Below are positions 43,973-49,818 of a stretch of DNA of 64,000 nucleotides, in pieces. A program made the position numbers and the translations under genes. Below the pieces are notes generated by a model. The model did not search any database, was not told the origin of the DNA, and worked only from the letters and a program-made list of their open reading frames with translations. Within the stretch, counting starts at the first letter, position 1. Each line of letters opens with the position of its first letter. Source of the DNA: Spirochaetota bacterium (lineage in GTDB: Bacteria; Spirochaetota; UBA4802; UBA5550). Where the stretch lies: assembly GCA_016928865.1 (NCBI GenBank), contig JAFGJX010000005.1:1-64000 (forward strand), given 5' to 3'.

Positions 43973-44010
43973 GAAACTGACGCTGGCTCTACATTATTCG
44001 CAAGAGACCG

Positions 44011-44044
44011 ACGGCCGGGGACCCGATCCCCGGCCGTTTTTATT
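44011..44044 (+). terminator. Intrinsic terminator of groESL
   Basis: An 11-bp GC-rich stem, ACGGCCGGGGA (44011-44021) and TCCCCGGCCGT (44027-44037), with a CCCGA loop is followed by TTTTATTT. Confidence 0.9.
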
Positions 44045-44226
44045 TGATATGCACCCTCCCGGATCGCTGCGGCCCAAGCGATGTTGCGGAAAACGACCCG
44101 CAGATCACACAAAGAAATAATTCAGATAAATGCCGGTTATACCGATCATTGATAGGTGAAGCCGCCGGCTTTTCATGCCGGATCAGCGGAGGTATCCGCG
44201 AGCAAAAAAATGTATATGGATGAACG

Positions 44227-45108
44227 ATGGATAATGATCCTCTGGTGCTGCCGAACAGGCTGAAAGACACATATGATTTTGAATACGTAATCGACATGCA
44301 GGACAGGATATATGGCCGGTCCACGGCGCTCGATCTGTCCCGCATATCGTTCATCGAGCCGTATTCGATGCTCTCTCTGCTGCTCATCGGCAGAAATTAT
44401 CTCAGAAAGAGCGGCAACAAGCTCAGGCTGACCGGCATCCCGATCAATATCCACCAGTACCTGCACCGCATGGATTTTTTCAAGTCGGGCGTCTTCGAGG
44501 TGCCCGAGCGGTTGAACGAGAAGCTGCTGCTGAAAAGGAGCTCGTTCAGCAAGAGAGTGCTGGAGATTATTGAGATCCCGAACAAGGAGCGGGAAAGCGT
44601 CCGGGTCATATCCGGAATTATCGGGCTTTTCAGGAAGCGGGCGGAGCATATATTGAAGTACTGGTTCTCGGAGAGAATAACCGATTATTTCGTCACCCTG
44701 ATTTCCGAGATATGCCAGAACATATACGAGCATAGCCTTGACTCAGGTTACCTTGCCATGCAGACATATTCGGTCGGCAAGGAAAATATCGTGCGGCTGT
44801 CGATCAGCGATTCAGGCATCGGAATAGTGAAGAGCTTTGAAAACAGCGGCATCAAATATGATTCGCCGGGGCACCTTATTGAGCTGGCGGTCACGACGCC
44901 CATATCGAGCAAACGTGAATTCGGATACGGCCTCTGCCAGGTAAATGCAATCGTGGAGAAGCTGAAAGGGTCTATTTTTTTACGATCGGGGAACGCGTCG
45001 GTTTCCACGCTGTACCAGAAAAAAGCGGCCGGCACCCCCTTTCTCTTTCAAAAGAACGACCTGAAGCCGTTCGACGGGACGCAGATTTCAATATCATTGA
45101 CGGGATAG
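44227..45108 (+). CDS. STAS-like / GHKL ATPase regulatory protein
   Basis: The 293-residue soluble protein has an N-terminal alpha/beta segment (residues 20-90) similar to STAS or STAS-like modules. The C-terminal half has a histidine-kinase-type ATPase fold: N-box LISEICQNIYEHS (158-170), G1 box SISDSGIGI (192-200) and G2 box EFGYGLCQVNA (231-241). No H-box histidine for autophosphorylation is seen. It therefore resembles anti-sigma-factor kinases of partner-switching systems more than a two-component sensor. It opens a five-gene co-directional unit; the next gene is 11 nt away. The substrate is unknown. Confidence 0.75.
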   Translation: MDNDPLVLPNRLKDTYDFEYVIDMQDRIYGRSTALDLSRISFIEPYSMLSLLLIGRNYLRKSGNKLRLTGIPINIHQYLHRMDFFKSGVFEVPERLNEKLLLKRSSFSKRVLEIIEIPNKERESVRVISGIIGLFRKRAEHILKYWFSERITDYFVTLISEICQNIYEHSLDSGYLAMQTYSVGKENIVRLSISDSGIGIVKSFENSGIKYDSPGHLIELAVTTPISSKREFGYGLCQVNAIVEKLKGSIFLRSGNASVSTLYQKKAAGTPFLFQKNDLKPFDGTQISISLTG

Positions 45109-45119
45109 GGACGGGAAGC

Positions 45120-45668
45120 ATGGTTATCAATGTCTTTAAAAAAGCGCAGGAGCTAAAACTCAAGACGCCGGACCTTGTCACCAGGCATGTCGGACGCGTC
45201 ATGTATGATGCGATCAAAAAGATGTTCGAAGCAGTAAGCGAGGACGAAATAGTGGTGCTCGATTTCGGGGGGATCAAGGTCATTGACTCGTCATTCATTG
45301 ATGAGATGCTGGTCAGGCTGATCATTGATTCAAGGACGTGCGAGCGGCCCTTCTTTATCAGGCTGAAGAACATATCGGAAATAGCCGAGATCAACATCGA
45401 CCTCGTGTTTCGCTCGTATTCGAATTATAAAAATAAAAAAATAGTTGTAATAACCGAAAACATCTGCCAGAATAATGCGTTCTTTATCGGACCGCTGTCG
45501 GACAGGGAACGGGATATTCTGGCATACCTGAGAGTGAACAAGTCCATTACGGTGGATGACGTCGCAGCATTTACCGGCCGTCCGGCGGGCGAAGCGAGAA
45601 AGATAATGGACGGGCTATACGCGCTGCGTCTGGCAAGGTACCTCGATGGAGTGTTTTGTTCGGTATGA
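45120..45668 (+). CDS. STAS-like domain protein with C-terminal winged helix
   Basis: The 182-residue protein has an N-terminal STAS-like segment (VVLDFGGIKVIDSSFIDEML, about residues 45-64) of the kind found in DUF4325-type proteins. It is followed by a helix-turn-helix-like segment LSDRERDILAYLRVNKSITV (about residues 126-145). The Ser-Ser after the Asp in this segment could be a phosphorylation site, as in SpoIIAA-type antagonists. It follows the GHKL ATPase gene by 11 nt, and the pair suggests kinase and target. The function is inferred. Confidence 0.65.
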   Translation: MVINVFKKAQELKLKTPDLVTRHVGRVMYDAIKKMFEAVSEDEIVVLDFGGIKVIDSSFIDEMLVRLIIDSRTCERPFFIRLKNISEIAEINIDLVFRSYSNYKNKKIVVITENICQNNAFFIGPLSDRERDILAYLRVNKSITVDDVAAFTGRPAGEARKIMDGLYALRLARYLDGVFCSV

Positions 45669-45717
45669 CCCTGTCAATAATCGGAAGACGCCATTCAGGA
45701 GATGAGTGGAGCAGCGG

Positions 45718-46185
45718 ATGAAATCGTCAGATAAAATCATCAGCAGGACAAAGGACGACAGCCTTTACGGCCTCCTCTCCTCGTACAAATCAAACAATAC
45801 CTACTTCCGGATTCTGGTTTCAGAGGAAGAAGATTCGCTCCTGGTACAGCTGACCGACAACCCGAAAAATTTTGAGCCGGTGTCGAAGGACAGGCCCAGA
45901 GCCTACCGGCCTCTCAGAAGGCTGGAGATCGGTGTCGCAAAAGCATCGTTGAAATATGTGCTGCCGGAAAATCTGATTGAGGTCCTGGGACCCCTTCTGG
46001 ATTTCAATATACAGCCGGACAAGGTCGTAATAACGGATGGTTTGAAAAAAAACGGCATATACGGCATCGAGACGAGCATGAAGTACAAAATGAAACTCAT
46101 ACACGGGGTGAAAAAGATAATCAACATGAGTCCCCAGAAAAAATATGAAATAATGGAAAAATATCTTTCCGCTAACCAGGAATAA
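45718..46185 (+). CDS. Hypothetical protein in the GHKL/STAS unit
   Basis: A soluble protein of about 155 residues with no recognised domain. It is rich in Lys, Tyr and Leu and has alternating strands and helices (TYFRILVSEEEDSLLVQL; LEIGVAKASLKYVLPENLI). ATG 45718 is chosen with GGAG six bases upstream; an in-frame GTG at 45706, also with an AGGAG site, would add four residues. It lies 49 bp after the STAS-like gene and 4 nt before the next gene, so it belongs to the same transcript. Confidence 0.6.
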   Translation: MKSSDKIISRTKDDSLYGLLSSYKSNNTYFRILVSEEEDSLLVQLTDNPKNFEPVSKDRPRAYRPLRRLEIGVAKASLKYVLPENLIEVLGPLLDFNIQPDKVVITDGLKKNGIYGIETSMKYKMKLIHGVKKIINMSPQKKYEIMEKYLSANQE

Positions 46186-46189
46186 AGCC

Positions 46190-47212
46190 ATGCCCGAACA
46201 AAACGATTCATTCAGCGAAAAATCCAGGCAAGTCGACAGGGCGATGAAATATACCAGGGGAGACATCATCAAGGCCAAGGAGATGGTTTCCGGCCAGTAT
46301 CTTGATGTCATGGTTCTCAAGGGGAAGTTCCTTGTCGAGAAGAAGGGGATATCGGGCATGTTCCTCGCCTTTTTCAACTATATCCATGAATATATTCCGA
46401 GCGTCGAGGCTATCGTTTCATCAAAGCCGATACTCTTTGAGAAGACAAGGATTTTTGACGACTGGAGGGTGCTCAACAAGGACCTTGACGCCTACAAGGA
46501 GAGTCCGGATGTAATGGACTCCAGGAATTTCACCTATTTTCTGATCGATTCATTCATAGGGTATGACGTATTTCCTGACGTGCAGGAGAACAATCTGGAC
46601 GCGTTGACGAAAACCGTCACGGAGATTATTGCGAAGTCATTCAATGCCCCTGCGGTCAAATGCCAGGTCGAGATGGAAACCACCAGCTCACTCGCGCTTG
46701 ACATGGCCGGCGTTAGCATCGAAGTGCCGGGCGCCGAAGTGAATGAGGAGAAGGTGCTGACCGAAGAAGACCAGCGCATTGCGAACATTGAGAAAGAAGC
46801 CAAGTACGTCATAGAGGGGAAGGCCATCCTCTCTCCGGTCAGGGGCAAGAACGCGAGCGATCTGATGCCCGGCGACAAGATACGGGTCATGCTGTCCGGA
46901 AACGACCTGGTCACGGGAAAAATCCTGAAGCTCCTGAATGCGTATGATTCGGAAGGCGGCCGTTTGCCGATCACGGGAAGGATAAAAGCGCGGGTGCCGC
47001 TGGAAAAGGGAGGATTCATGCTTTATGCGTTTGTTGCTAAGGGCGCCCTCGCAAAGATATTCGAGGAAGAAAACGTAAAAATAATGGTCGATTTACCGCA
47101 GGATGAATTCATGCATAACGCCCCCCGCTTTGACAGGTGGGTGATATATGTGCTCGCCATTCTGCTTGTCCTGATCTTCTTGAGCGGGATCATCCTGCTG
47201 CAGATTCTGTGA
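46190..47212 (+). CDS. Tail-anchored hypothetical protein
   Basis: The 340-residue protein has no N-terminal signal. One hydrophobic helix sits at the extreme C-terminus (about residues 317-340, WVIYVLAILLVLIFLSG), so it is probably anchored in the inner membrane with the bulk in the cytoplasm. The region GDKIRVMLSGNDLVTGKILK (about 228-247) followed by a beta-rich stretch hints at a small beta-barrel or OB/PilZ-like fold, without a clear family. AGGA lies upstream of ATG 46190. It is encoded in the GHKL/STAS unit. Confidence 0.65.
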   Translation: MPEQNDSFSEKSRQVDRAMKYTRGDIIKAKEMVSGQYLDVMVLKGKFLVEKKGISGMFLAFFNYIHEYIPSVEAIVSSKPILFEKTRIFDDWRVLNKDLDAYKESPDVMDSRNFTYFLIDSFIGYDVFPDVQENNLDALTKTVTEIIAKSFNAPAVKCQVEMETTSSLALDMAGVSIEVPGAEVNEEKVLTEEDQRIANIEKEAKYVIEGKAILSPVRGKNASDLMPGDKIRVMLSGNDLVTGKILKLLNAYDSEGGRLPITGRIKARVPLEKGGFMLYAFVAKGALAKIFEEENVKIMVDLPQDEFMHNAPRFDRWVIYVLAILLVLIFLSGIILLQIL

Positions 47213-47214
47213 GT

Positions 47215-48102
47215 ATGAAGATATCAGGGAACATCGTCCGTGTCCTCCTTCTTTTTGTCCTGCCGGCCCTCCTGGGGCAGATGCCAGACTGGAAATATTT
47301 TAAAGACCGCCAGGGCAATACCTATTTCCTGGACCGGGCGGGTAAGATCCGCATTACTAACCTCAAGAGATACGGGTACCGGCCGGTATCGGCGTCTGGA
47401 ATCGATTATTATATTGAATATGCAACGTCCCTCATACAGGAGCACCGGCCCCTCGAAGGGATCTCGGTCCTCAAGTCAATATGCGCGCTGCCGTCAGACA
47501 ACAACAGGGTATTGCAGGCGCAGGTCAGGGCGACCGAGATCCTCAACACTCTGAAAAAGAAGAACGGCCCGCGTTATTCCGCGATGAACGAGTCAGCCTC
47601 CCTGATTATTTTCAGCAATGACGGCGCCACCACGGTTATCAATGACCTGATGCGGTATACTTTTCAGGCACCGGGACGTATCGATGTCGTCAGGAAACGG
47701 GACCGGGCCGGTTCTGAATACCGGTATTCGGGAATACAGTTTGGCGCCCGCGCATCGAGGAATGCGGCAGCGCCGGGAGATGCCTATGATTTTCTTATTG
47801 CAGTGGACAGTGAAAAATTTTCTGTCCCTATCAGGGACCTTTCCCACGCGGTTGAACAATGGAGGGGCAACGTCGGAGACCAGGGGCTCACGCGGCAGGT
47901 TCTGGAGCAGAAAGACGACCGGGTGATTTACCTGTTCAGGAGCGGCGATCGACCCGGGTACACGGGGATCGAGGGCATATACGTGATCGGTTGCTACAGT
48001 CACTATGTCCGGTTGATTGCCTCGGATTCCGGTTACCGGGAAGACGGCGGGATCATGCGGAAGATTATCGGCGGGTTCAGGACCGTGACGGAAAGACGCT
48101 GA
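47215..48102 (+). CDS. Secreted hypothetical protein ending the GHKL/STAS unit
   Basis: The 295-residue product has a signal peptide (MKISGNIVRVLLLFVLPALL). The frame is open from 47137, but ATG 47215 gives the clean signal sequence and sits 2 nt after the previous stop. No domain is recognised. After the signal comes WKYFKDRQGNTYFLDRAGKI, a DUF4124-like pattern also seen in some periplasmic proteins. The rest is mixed alpha/beta. Its position suggests a periplasmic output or sensing part of the same unit. Confidence 0.65.
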   Translation: MKISGNIVRVLLLFVLPALLGQMPDWKYFKDRQGNTYFLDRAGKIRITNLKRYGYRPVSASGIDYYIEYATSLIQEHRPLEGISVLKSICALPSDNNRVLQAQVRATEILNTLKKKNGPRYSAMNESASLIIFSNDGATTVINDLMRYTFQAPGRIDVVRKRDRAGSEYRYSGIQFGARASRNAAAPGDAYDFLIAVDSEKFSVPIRDLSHAVEQWRGNVGDQGLTRQVLEQKDDRVIYLFRSGDRPGYTGIEGIYVIGCYSHYVRLIASDSGYREDGGIMRKIIGGFRTVTERR

Positions 48103-48107
48103 TTCGG

Positions 48108-48575
48108 CTACGTGCCGGTATACTCGAGCGCCACTTCGTTACAGGAATCCTGCCGCGGGCAGTTGGCGCAGTCTTTCCATATCTTTTCCGGCAGGGTGTC
48201 CATATCAATGATGGAGAACCCGTTCTTCTTGAAGAAACCGGCCGCGTAGGTGAGCACGAAAATCCTCGGAGCATTCGCCCGGTTGAGCTCGCTGATGAGG
48301 GCGTTCAGCAGCGCCGATCCAATTCCCCTGCGGAGCTGGTTTTTGTCCACGGCGAGGGAGCGGACTTCCTTCAGCCGGTCGCCGTAATCATAGAATGTAA
48401 CGACACCGACTATTGCCCTGCCCACTTCGGCAACGAGAAAATTATTCAGATTGACGTTTATGTCCTCAATGCTTCGGGATAGAAGCACGCCTTCCTCTGA
48501 GTAGGATGATATTATCCGGTAAATGGATTCAATGTCCTCCGGGGCGGCTTTCCTGACTGAGGCGGTTGTTTTCAA
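48108..48575 (-). CDS. argA: Short amino-acid N-acetyltransferase (ArgA type)
   Basis: GNAT-fold enzyme that probably acetylates glutamate for arginine synthesis. The 155-residue product has the acetyl-CoA loop QLRRGIGSALLNAL (about residues 80-93). The C-terminal signature LPEKIWKDCANCPRQDSCNE is characteristic of short stand-alone N-acetylglutamate synthases, whose cysteines may bind metal. The start is TTG at 48575 with AAGGGA upstream. It is convergent with the GHKL/STAS unit, 5 nt from its end. Other arginine genes are not nearby. Confidence 0.72.
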   Translation of the reverse strand: MKTTASVRKAAPEDIESIYRIISSYSEEGVLLSRSIEDINVNLNNFLVAEVGRAIVGVVTFYDYGDRLKEVRSLAVDKNQLRRGIGSALLNALISELNRANAPRIFVLTYAAGFFKKNGFSIIDMDTLPEKIWKDCANCPRQDSCNEVALEYTGT

Positions 48576-48682
48576 TAAAGGTCCCTTCGCATGGTCTGGG
48601 TCGCCCGCACCCGAGCACGGACGTCAGCTGTTTTTCAGGTCCAGGCGCAGCCTGATTTTAATCTGCCTGAAAATAAGTGATG

Positions 48683-49264
48683 CTACCTTTTTATAATCCG
48701 GGTGTTTTCCGCAAGCGAATATTTATTATATCCGGAAATTTTTTTAAGGGCATCCCTTGCGTCGTCCCCGGTACGATAGGGACCCACATAGATGCGATAG
48801 AGGGACTTGTTCTTGGATAGGATGACTGTATGGCCCCTGCGGCTCAGGAAAGCGGCAATCTTTCTGGACTGCTCCTGGTCGTATTCGTTGTTCATCCTGA
48901 TGACATAGGGATAGTTTTTTTTGGGGAAGAGGCTGTCTTTAGGGGACTTCCCGGCAGACGCTTCTTCGGCGAAGAGAGAGAAGTTCCTGCCGATATCTGC
49001 CATCGCATTATAGGTTTTCTTGTCGACAATTTCACGCTCCGCCCCGCCGGTGAACTTTATCCCCGTCATGATGCCGGCCGTAAAGGATATGATGCAGAGA
49101 GCGGTTACAAAGAAAAATGTCCTGCTCGCTTTCTTCCTGATCCGTTCAACCTCACGGGGTGTATTCTGCGCTACCCGGTGAAAATACTCAGGATCGAAAT
49201 CGTTATTGTAGTGCGGCTGCACGGTACGTATATTTTTCCTATCATAAAAGTCGATATTTTGCAT
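48683..49264 (-). CDS. SPOR-domain membrane protein
   Basis: A 193-residue bitopic protein. A cytoplasmic part of about 47 residues is followed by one membrane helix (TFFFVTALCIISFTAGIMTG). The periplasmic C-terminal part, YVIRMNNEYDQEQSRKIAAF followed by YRIYVGPYRTGDDARDALKK, matches the SPOR fold that binds denuded glycan strands at division septa. It probably acts in cell division or peptidoglycan turnover. A GAGG site precedes the ATG. Confidence 0.82.
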   Translation of the reverse strand: MQNIDFYDRKNIRTVQPHYNNDFDPEYFHRVAQNTPREVERIRKKASRTFFFVTALCIISFTAGIMTGIKFTGGAEREIVDKKTYNAMADIGRNFSLFAEEASAGKSPKDSLFPKKNYPYVIRMNNEYDQEQSRKIAAFLSRRGHTVILSKNKSLYRIYVGPYRTGDDARDALKKISGYNKYSLAENTRIIKR

Positions 49265-49464
49265 GGTTATGGCCTCAAATGGATGTTATCCGGGTGACAT
49301 ATTCTTATATAAAATTCGACATTGATTGCTGATTGCATAAGCAATAAATTTGTCATGAAAATGGATGTAAATGAGGCCCGGCAGGTGTCGAAAGAACCGA
49401 AACAAATATCAGCATACAGGTTTTTTTCTTGATTCGGCGGGGCTTGTTGGTTAGGTTAGGCAGC

Positions 49465-49818
49465 ATGATTGAAATAACCGATAACGGCTTGTATTTCATG
49501 ATCTCCCTCAAGATCGAGGAGCTTGATTTTATCAAGACCCCCAAGTTTTCTGAATACATGAGGGATAAACTGCAGGAATTGAATTATCCCAATGTCATCC
49601 TTGACCTTGAAAAGCTGTATTATATTGACTCAACCGGGTTGAGCTTTCTGATCAATATCAGCCGCAGGATCAAGGAGAGCAACCATGAGATGGTAGTGGT
49701 GTGCACCAGCACGAAGATTCTACAGTTGTTCGATATTGCTAAAATAGGGATGTTTTTCAAGATTTTCGACACCATTCAGAGTGCGGAACAGTATCTCGCT
49801 TCAAAAAAAACGGACTAG
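49465..49818 (+). CDS. STAS-domain anti-sigma factor antagonist-like protein
   Basis: A 117-residue single STAS domain protein. It contains VILDLEKLYYIDSTGLSFLI, with the Ser of DSTG in the position phosphorylated in SpoIIAA/RsbV. Its likely role is regulation of an anti-sigma factor or kinase. No partner gene is adjacent, but a GHKL ATPase of the right class is encoded 4.4 kb away. ATG 49465 follows TAGG; longer starts are less likely. Confidence 0.82.
   Translation: MIEITDNGLYFMISLKIEELDFIKTPKFSEYMRDKLQELNYPNVILDLEKLYYIDSTGLSFLINISRRIKESNHEMVVVCTSTKILQLFDIAKIGMFFKIFDTIQSAEQYLASKKTD

Follow-up and report, generated by a model that had tools for sequence, protein, structure and literature searches.

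A five-gene unit in the stretch of DNA that was analysed (64,000 nucleotides, hereafter the window) begins with two genes, A and B, whose products resemble the kinase CapK and its STAS-domain substrate CapS, and continues with three genes, C, D, and E, that form a new module. The block formed by A, B, C, and D is held by a single order of uncultured spirochaetes, in which the A-B pair behaves as a detachable regulator. We propose, at about even chances, that A and B are a CapKS-type phospho-switch that heads a housekeeping operon and controls C, D, and E. The initial annotation had put forward the entire unit as a candidate for an undescribed module. This description holds for C-D-E and for the setting of A-B, which is also new, but not for the kind of pair that A and B form, which was published in 2026.

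Table 1. Positions in the window of the five genes and of associated features.
Feature	Position	Strand	Basis
Gene A: STAS-like domain and GHKL ATPase, predicted Ser/Thr kinase (CapK/VapK-like)	44227..45108	+	Pfam, profiles
Gene B: STAS (DUF4325) and winged helix, predicted kinase substrate (CapS-like)	45120..45668	+	Profiles
Gene C: soluble protein, confined to this order	45718..46185	+	Homologue search, model
Gene D: tail-anchored protein	46190..47212	+	Model, profile
Gene E: secreted/periplasmic protein (start codon taken, ATG 47215)	47215..48102	+	Sequence
Intrinsic terminator closing groESL	44010..44038	+	12-pair stem and T tail
Conserved sigma-28-promoter-like element T..A-N17-CCGATnAT, TTCAGATAAATGCCGGTTATACCGATCAT	44121..44149	+	Upstream of A; role inferred
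Codon of A Asn165, N-box Asn, equivalent of CapK N218	44719..44721	+	Alignment
Codon of B Ser58, predicted phosphoacceptor (DxSF; CapS S54)	45291..45293	+	Alignment

The five open reading frames are all located on the plus strand and are separated by gaps of 11, 49, 4, and 2 nucleotides, as initially annotated. Transcription of A to E is probably separate from that of groESL because a strong terminator stands between groEL and gene A. Downstream from E, the minus strand (48108-49264) carries genes for a GNAT-like and a SPOR-domain protein, which are syntenic in many relatives. A separate STAS anti-sigma-antagonist gene (49429-49818; TIGR00377, 62.6 bits) lies outside the unit, 1.3 kb downstream; of the 20 relatives that were read, a single one had it at this location.

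CapK is a GHKL serine kinase and CapS its STAS-winged-helix (STAS-wHTH) substrate, and the pair controls immune operons (EMBO J 2026; PMC13373217). CapK phosphorylates S54 of CapS, which is located in a DxSF motif, and this phosphorylation breaks the CapS dimer; the N218A substitution in CapK strongly reduces phosphorylation (PMC13373217). The product of gene A contains an N-terminal STAS-like part and an ATPase domain scoring above the cut-off of Pfam HATPase_c (29.7 versus 26.4 bits). In 21 relatives, the N-box (E161/N165), DSGIG, and GYGL motifs were invariant or nearly so, and N165, which aligns with CapK N218, was invariant. Profiles were compared with a reference set consisting of five aligned CapKS loci from plasmids, each E-value referring to a single comparison. 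The match between A and CapK (probability 98.5, E-value 4e-15, 267 columns) covered both the STAS and GHKL domains, with values of 5e-15 for the kinase part and, more weakly, 9e-5 for the STAS part alone. The A profile also retrieved CapK proteins in an HMM search (E-values down to 4.6e-12); it had no match in a profile search of the PDB. By sequence profile, A resembles CapK and not the MutL/Hsp90-type ATPases. In a tree of A, CapK, and other kinases, the spirochaetal A proteins formed one group and the CapK proteins another (99/96); the other long kinase sequences could not be placed. A protein from Planctomycetota (L118 4746-5912) matched the profiles of A (4.5e-31) and CapK (1.6e-13); its short contig carried no B-like gene.

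The N-terminal part of A differs from that of CapK. The alignment starts at CapK residue 65, the N-terminal HTH being absent from A; deletion of this HTH has no effect in CapK (PMC13373217). In CapK, W68 stacks on ssDNA and is required for activation by ssDNA (PMC13373217). The corresponding position in A (residue 12) is occupied by L, C, or F in 21 of 21 proteins. The lack of a Trp at this position suggests that A probably responds to a signal other than that of CapK, or senses it in a different manner.

All 21 B proteins matched the STAS-like family DUF4325 (best E-value 2.4e-9). The profile of B matched that of CapS over the STAS and winged-helix domains (3.4e-11), and each half did so separately (2e-7 for STAS, 3.7e-6 for the winged helix), although the identity between B and CapS is only 16%. 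An HMM search with the B profile retrieved CapS (E-values down to 7.4e-12), and a search of the PDB retrieved the solved VapS (8e-5) and CapS (0.004) proteins; the available structures are 9Z71, 9Z72, and 9Z73 for CapS and 9Z7O for VapK/VapS/VapC (PMC13373217). Ser58, in a DxSF motif, was invariant in the 21 B proteins, as was the aligned S54 in the five CapS proteins, and the residue preceding this Ser varied in both families. No paper combining DUF4325 and STAS was found in the literature. The domain composition of A and B and their likeness to a kinase and its antagonist, both noticed in the initial annotation, are borne out by these comparisons, since in CapKS, the closest characterised relatives, the kinase phosphorylates the STAS protein. 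A and B may therefore be expected to work like CapK and CapS at the level of the phospho-switch.

The output of this switch could be transcriptional if B were a true DNA-binding repressor like CapS, with unphosphorylated dimers sitting on the operon promoter and phosphorylation by A leading to de-repression. We consider this alternative possible but rather unlikely. The order of the domains in B, the match of its winged helix alone to CapS, and the position of the pair in the operon are all as in CapKS, and the B-C gap is promoter-sized and contains an inverted repeat in some families (L020, L023). However, the DNA-contacting residues N145 and K151 of CapS correspond, in an alignment of low identity, to columns E158 and D164 of B, which are not conserved and contain mostly acidic or mixed residues. 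The net charge of the recognition helix was negative in 18 of the 21 B proteins (range -4 to +1), whereas each of the five CapS proteins had +3; the mean net charge of the wHTH domain of B was -2. In addition, no palindrome common to the relatives was found upstream of A or in the B-C gap. An inverted repeat, TTTTGTCC...GGACAAAA, was confined to two genomes of family f3. The acidic helix and the missing contacts weaken the case for sequence-specific DNA binding by B, although other contacts may serve. Thus, the suggestion that the winged-helix tail of B acts as a direct transcription switch is not supported so far.

The partnership of A and B shares with CapKS a STAS-GHKL kinase gene directly followed by a STAS-wHTH gene, near full-length profile matches for both products, the active-site Asn, and the phosphoacceptor Ser. 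In contrast to CapKS, the pair is fixed across an order of spirochaetes, and no immune operon is found 3' of it. The latter association is typical of capKS but not strict, as it concerns 348 of 443 known cases (PMC13373217). We did not classify A-B as CapKS because the HTH, Trp68, the DNA contacts, and the immune cargo are all lacking. VapK/VapS/VapC resembles A-B in having a kinase devoid of HTH and a STAS substrate, with an output at the protein level, as proposed for A-B. It differs by the short inhibitory tail of VapS, in place of the winged helix of B, and by VapC, since the A-E operon encodes no VapC/PIN protein.

Of 36 relatives, 16 carried the strict form of the promoter-like element (T..A-N17-CCGAT) upstream of A, compared with 0.54 (maximum 2) in dinucleotide shuffles. 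This count is inflated by relatedness within genera, although the strict form still spans three families. The looser CCGAT core was present in most of the 36 relatives. In the genomes of these relatives, 8 of 41 flagellin genes carried T[TC]AA-N17-CCGAA (0.27 in shuffles). Because of this similar element, we interpret the element upstream of A, with moderate confidence, as a sigma-28-like promoter. The consensus for E. coli sigma-28 is TAAAGTTT-n11-GCCGATAA (PMC2859248); aligned as T..A-N16-nCCGATnA with TAAA-N15-GCCGATAA, the spacing of the element is one nucleotide longer than in E. coli (PMC2859248). The genome from which the window originates encodes FliA, the product of the sigma-28 gene, above cut-off, and contains 14 occurrences of the exact pattern versus 2 for a reversed control; the A-type element was not clearly present at its flagellin genes.

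The presence of a sigma-28 gene in the genome and of a sigma-28-like element before A would also fit a partner switch of the SpoIIAB/SpoIIAA or RsbW/RsbV type, in which A would act as an anti-sigma kinase antagonised by B and would target a sigma factor from another locus, such as FliA. The logic, a GHKL serine kinase acting on a STAS substrate, is the same. This alternative is nevertheless improbable. Gene A scored below the cut-off for HATPase_c_2, the RsbW/SpoIIAB type (13.5 versus 27.4 bits), while matching CapK end to end. A carries an additional STAS domain, and B an additional winged helix that is lacking in SpoIIAA and RsbV. Finally, as initially annotated, neither a sigma factor nor a phosphatase could be recognised next to the five genes.

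Homologues of A, B, C, and D were searched for in 296 Spirochaetota genomes. A was detected in 38 of these, always as a single copy (48-81% identity among aligned sequences), and all 38 belong to six families of the order of the window. A profile search returned the same 38 genomes, with only weak partial matches elsewhere, and B occurred in the identical set. In all 38 genomes, match coordinates and the loci read placed A, B, C, and D next to each other in the same order. Since this co-occurrence extends over six families, the association is not due to chance. E adjoined D in 16 of the 20 loci read; in the loci of families f2 and f7, E was not detected beside D. Conservation of the neighbourhood in relatives, on which the initial annotation had placed weight, is thus complete for A to D in the genomes that have A, and partial for E. 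C was found in 41 of the 296 genomes of the phylum, all within the order, namely the same 38 and three genomes of family f5. The latter genomes (90-96% complete) have C, D, and E side by side, but no A or B could be detected in any of them. A-B therefore behaves as a separable regulatory cassette, and any control by A-B is not essential, as family f5 does without it. One f5 genome harbored a second copy of C standing alone.

Persistence of C-D-E in the absence of B indicates that these genes are unlikely to form a toxin dependent on B. An immune or toxin-antitoxin locus comparable to CapKS-controlled operons or VapKSC, with C, D, and E as effectors, is highly improbable even though, outside the order, the pairs most closely related to A-B are located in immune or mobile loci, as f5 lacks the would-be antitoxin B, the copy of A is single and fixed across the order, no PIN domain was found in C, D, or E, and no convincing PADLOC match was obtained for any of the five genes (none at all for C, D, and E).

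The CapKS-type phospho-switch that we favor would operate as follows. A cellular signal would lead A to transfer phosphate from ATP to Ser58 of B, where helix 2 of the STAS domain begins. By analogy with the breakage of the CapS dimer, the STAS domain of phosphorylated B would bind differently, and the winged-helix domain would let go of its partner. Given the acidic recognition helix of this domain and its lack of the CapS DNA contacts, B more likely acts by contacting a protein than by binding specific DNA sequences; candidate partners are C, the part of D that faces the cytoplasm, and the transcription machinery. The switch would thereby set the amount or the activity of soluble C, of D, which is tail-anchored on the cytoplasmic side, and of secreted E, in an operon that probably has a sigma-28-like promoter of its own. 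D and E may carry an envelope signal, as the initial annotation suggested. For this switch we infer the phosphorylation step, the partner, the direction, and the signal, and, from gene order alone, the control of C-D-E. A more specific version is tentative and, in our opinion, unlikely to be correct in full: a CapKS-type switch would have become a fixed housekeeping regulator in one order, its winged helix binding a protein instead of DNA, and would control C-D-E as a new envelope module linked to the flagellar sigma-28 regulon.

If the proposed switch exists, a phospho-switch described in 2026 for immune operons is also used outside immunity, as a single copy, order-wide, and next to non-immune genes. 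The change in the winged helix of B would provide an example, open to testing, of an output domain whose target has changed from DNA to protein, and C, D, and E, which are conserved without known function, would gain a regulator as a starting point for their study.

The nearest A homologue found outside the order, which was also the best plasmid match, is BAY80308 from a conjugative plasmid of Nostoc linckia NIES-25 (31.5% identity over 98% of the length, E-value 1e-28). As in the A-B pair, this full-length homologue adjoins a STAS-wHTH gene, BAY80307, whose product matched both B (1.4e-14) and CapS (2.3e-14). In contrast to that of B, the Nostoc winged helix is basic (net charge +3), and the next two genes, judging by their sequence, encode MBL-fold and ThiF/JAB proteins. 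Operons containing MBL genes are listed among CapKS operons (PMC13373217), and the Nostoc arrangement resembles these. The Nostoc locus (L214 7001-12029, AP018224.1), an HTH-less CapKS-like pair, is therefore best viewed as a probable immune operon, and the A-B kind of pair would accordingly span settings within and outside immunity. Other plasmids and a phage-like element also carried related kinase/STAS-like pairs.

Used as negative controls, the profiles of C, D, and E had no match with CapK or CapS. C remained, as initially annotated, a soluble protein without recognised family: no Pfam family was detected, and its model (pLDDT 83) had no PDB match below an E-value of 0.17 with Foldseek and a best VIA Z-score of 5.3 over 73 residues, matches too weak for a fold assignment. 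The predicted secretion of E agrees with its signal-peptide-like N terminus, which is followed by a conserved QMPDW motif; no Pfam family was common to its relatives.

The predicted membrane anchor of D was recovered in its model (pLDDT 84.8) as a confident C-terminal transmembrane helix (316-339), preceded by an N-terminal helix pair, a mixed domain, and a barrel (219-301) similar to domain I of EF-P (VIA Z-score 7.7, rmsd 1.8, 58 aligned residues). Such barrels are common, and no function was deduced from this similarity. All 21 D proteins matched NF047678, the LIC10486 family (E-values down to 2.2e-21), but D scored 58.7 bits for a cut-off of 500 for this NCBIfam equivalog. D therefore appears to be a distant relative, and not a member, of the Leptospira LIC10486 family/DUF4899. 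The superfamily is broad in spirochaetes, D-like proteins being present in 139 of the 296 Spirochaetota genomes, with several copies per genome. One D paralogue in the genome of the window (L133 7636-9275) is preceded by a gene reading as a CheY-like receiver. In genomes of families f2, f3, and f6, a short Fis-like HTH protein (...LELTNWNLQKTSRVLDIARNTLKAKIKKY) is encoded downstream of D, on the strand opposite to it (oriented loci L042, 7457-7717, and L045, 7881-8231; similarly in L037, L038, L039, and L041), and in the loci that include E, its gene separates D from E.
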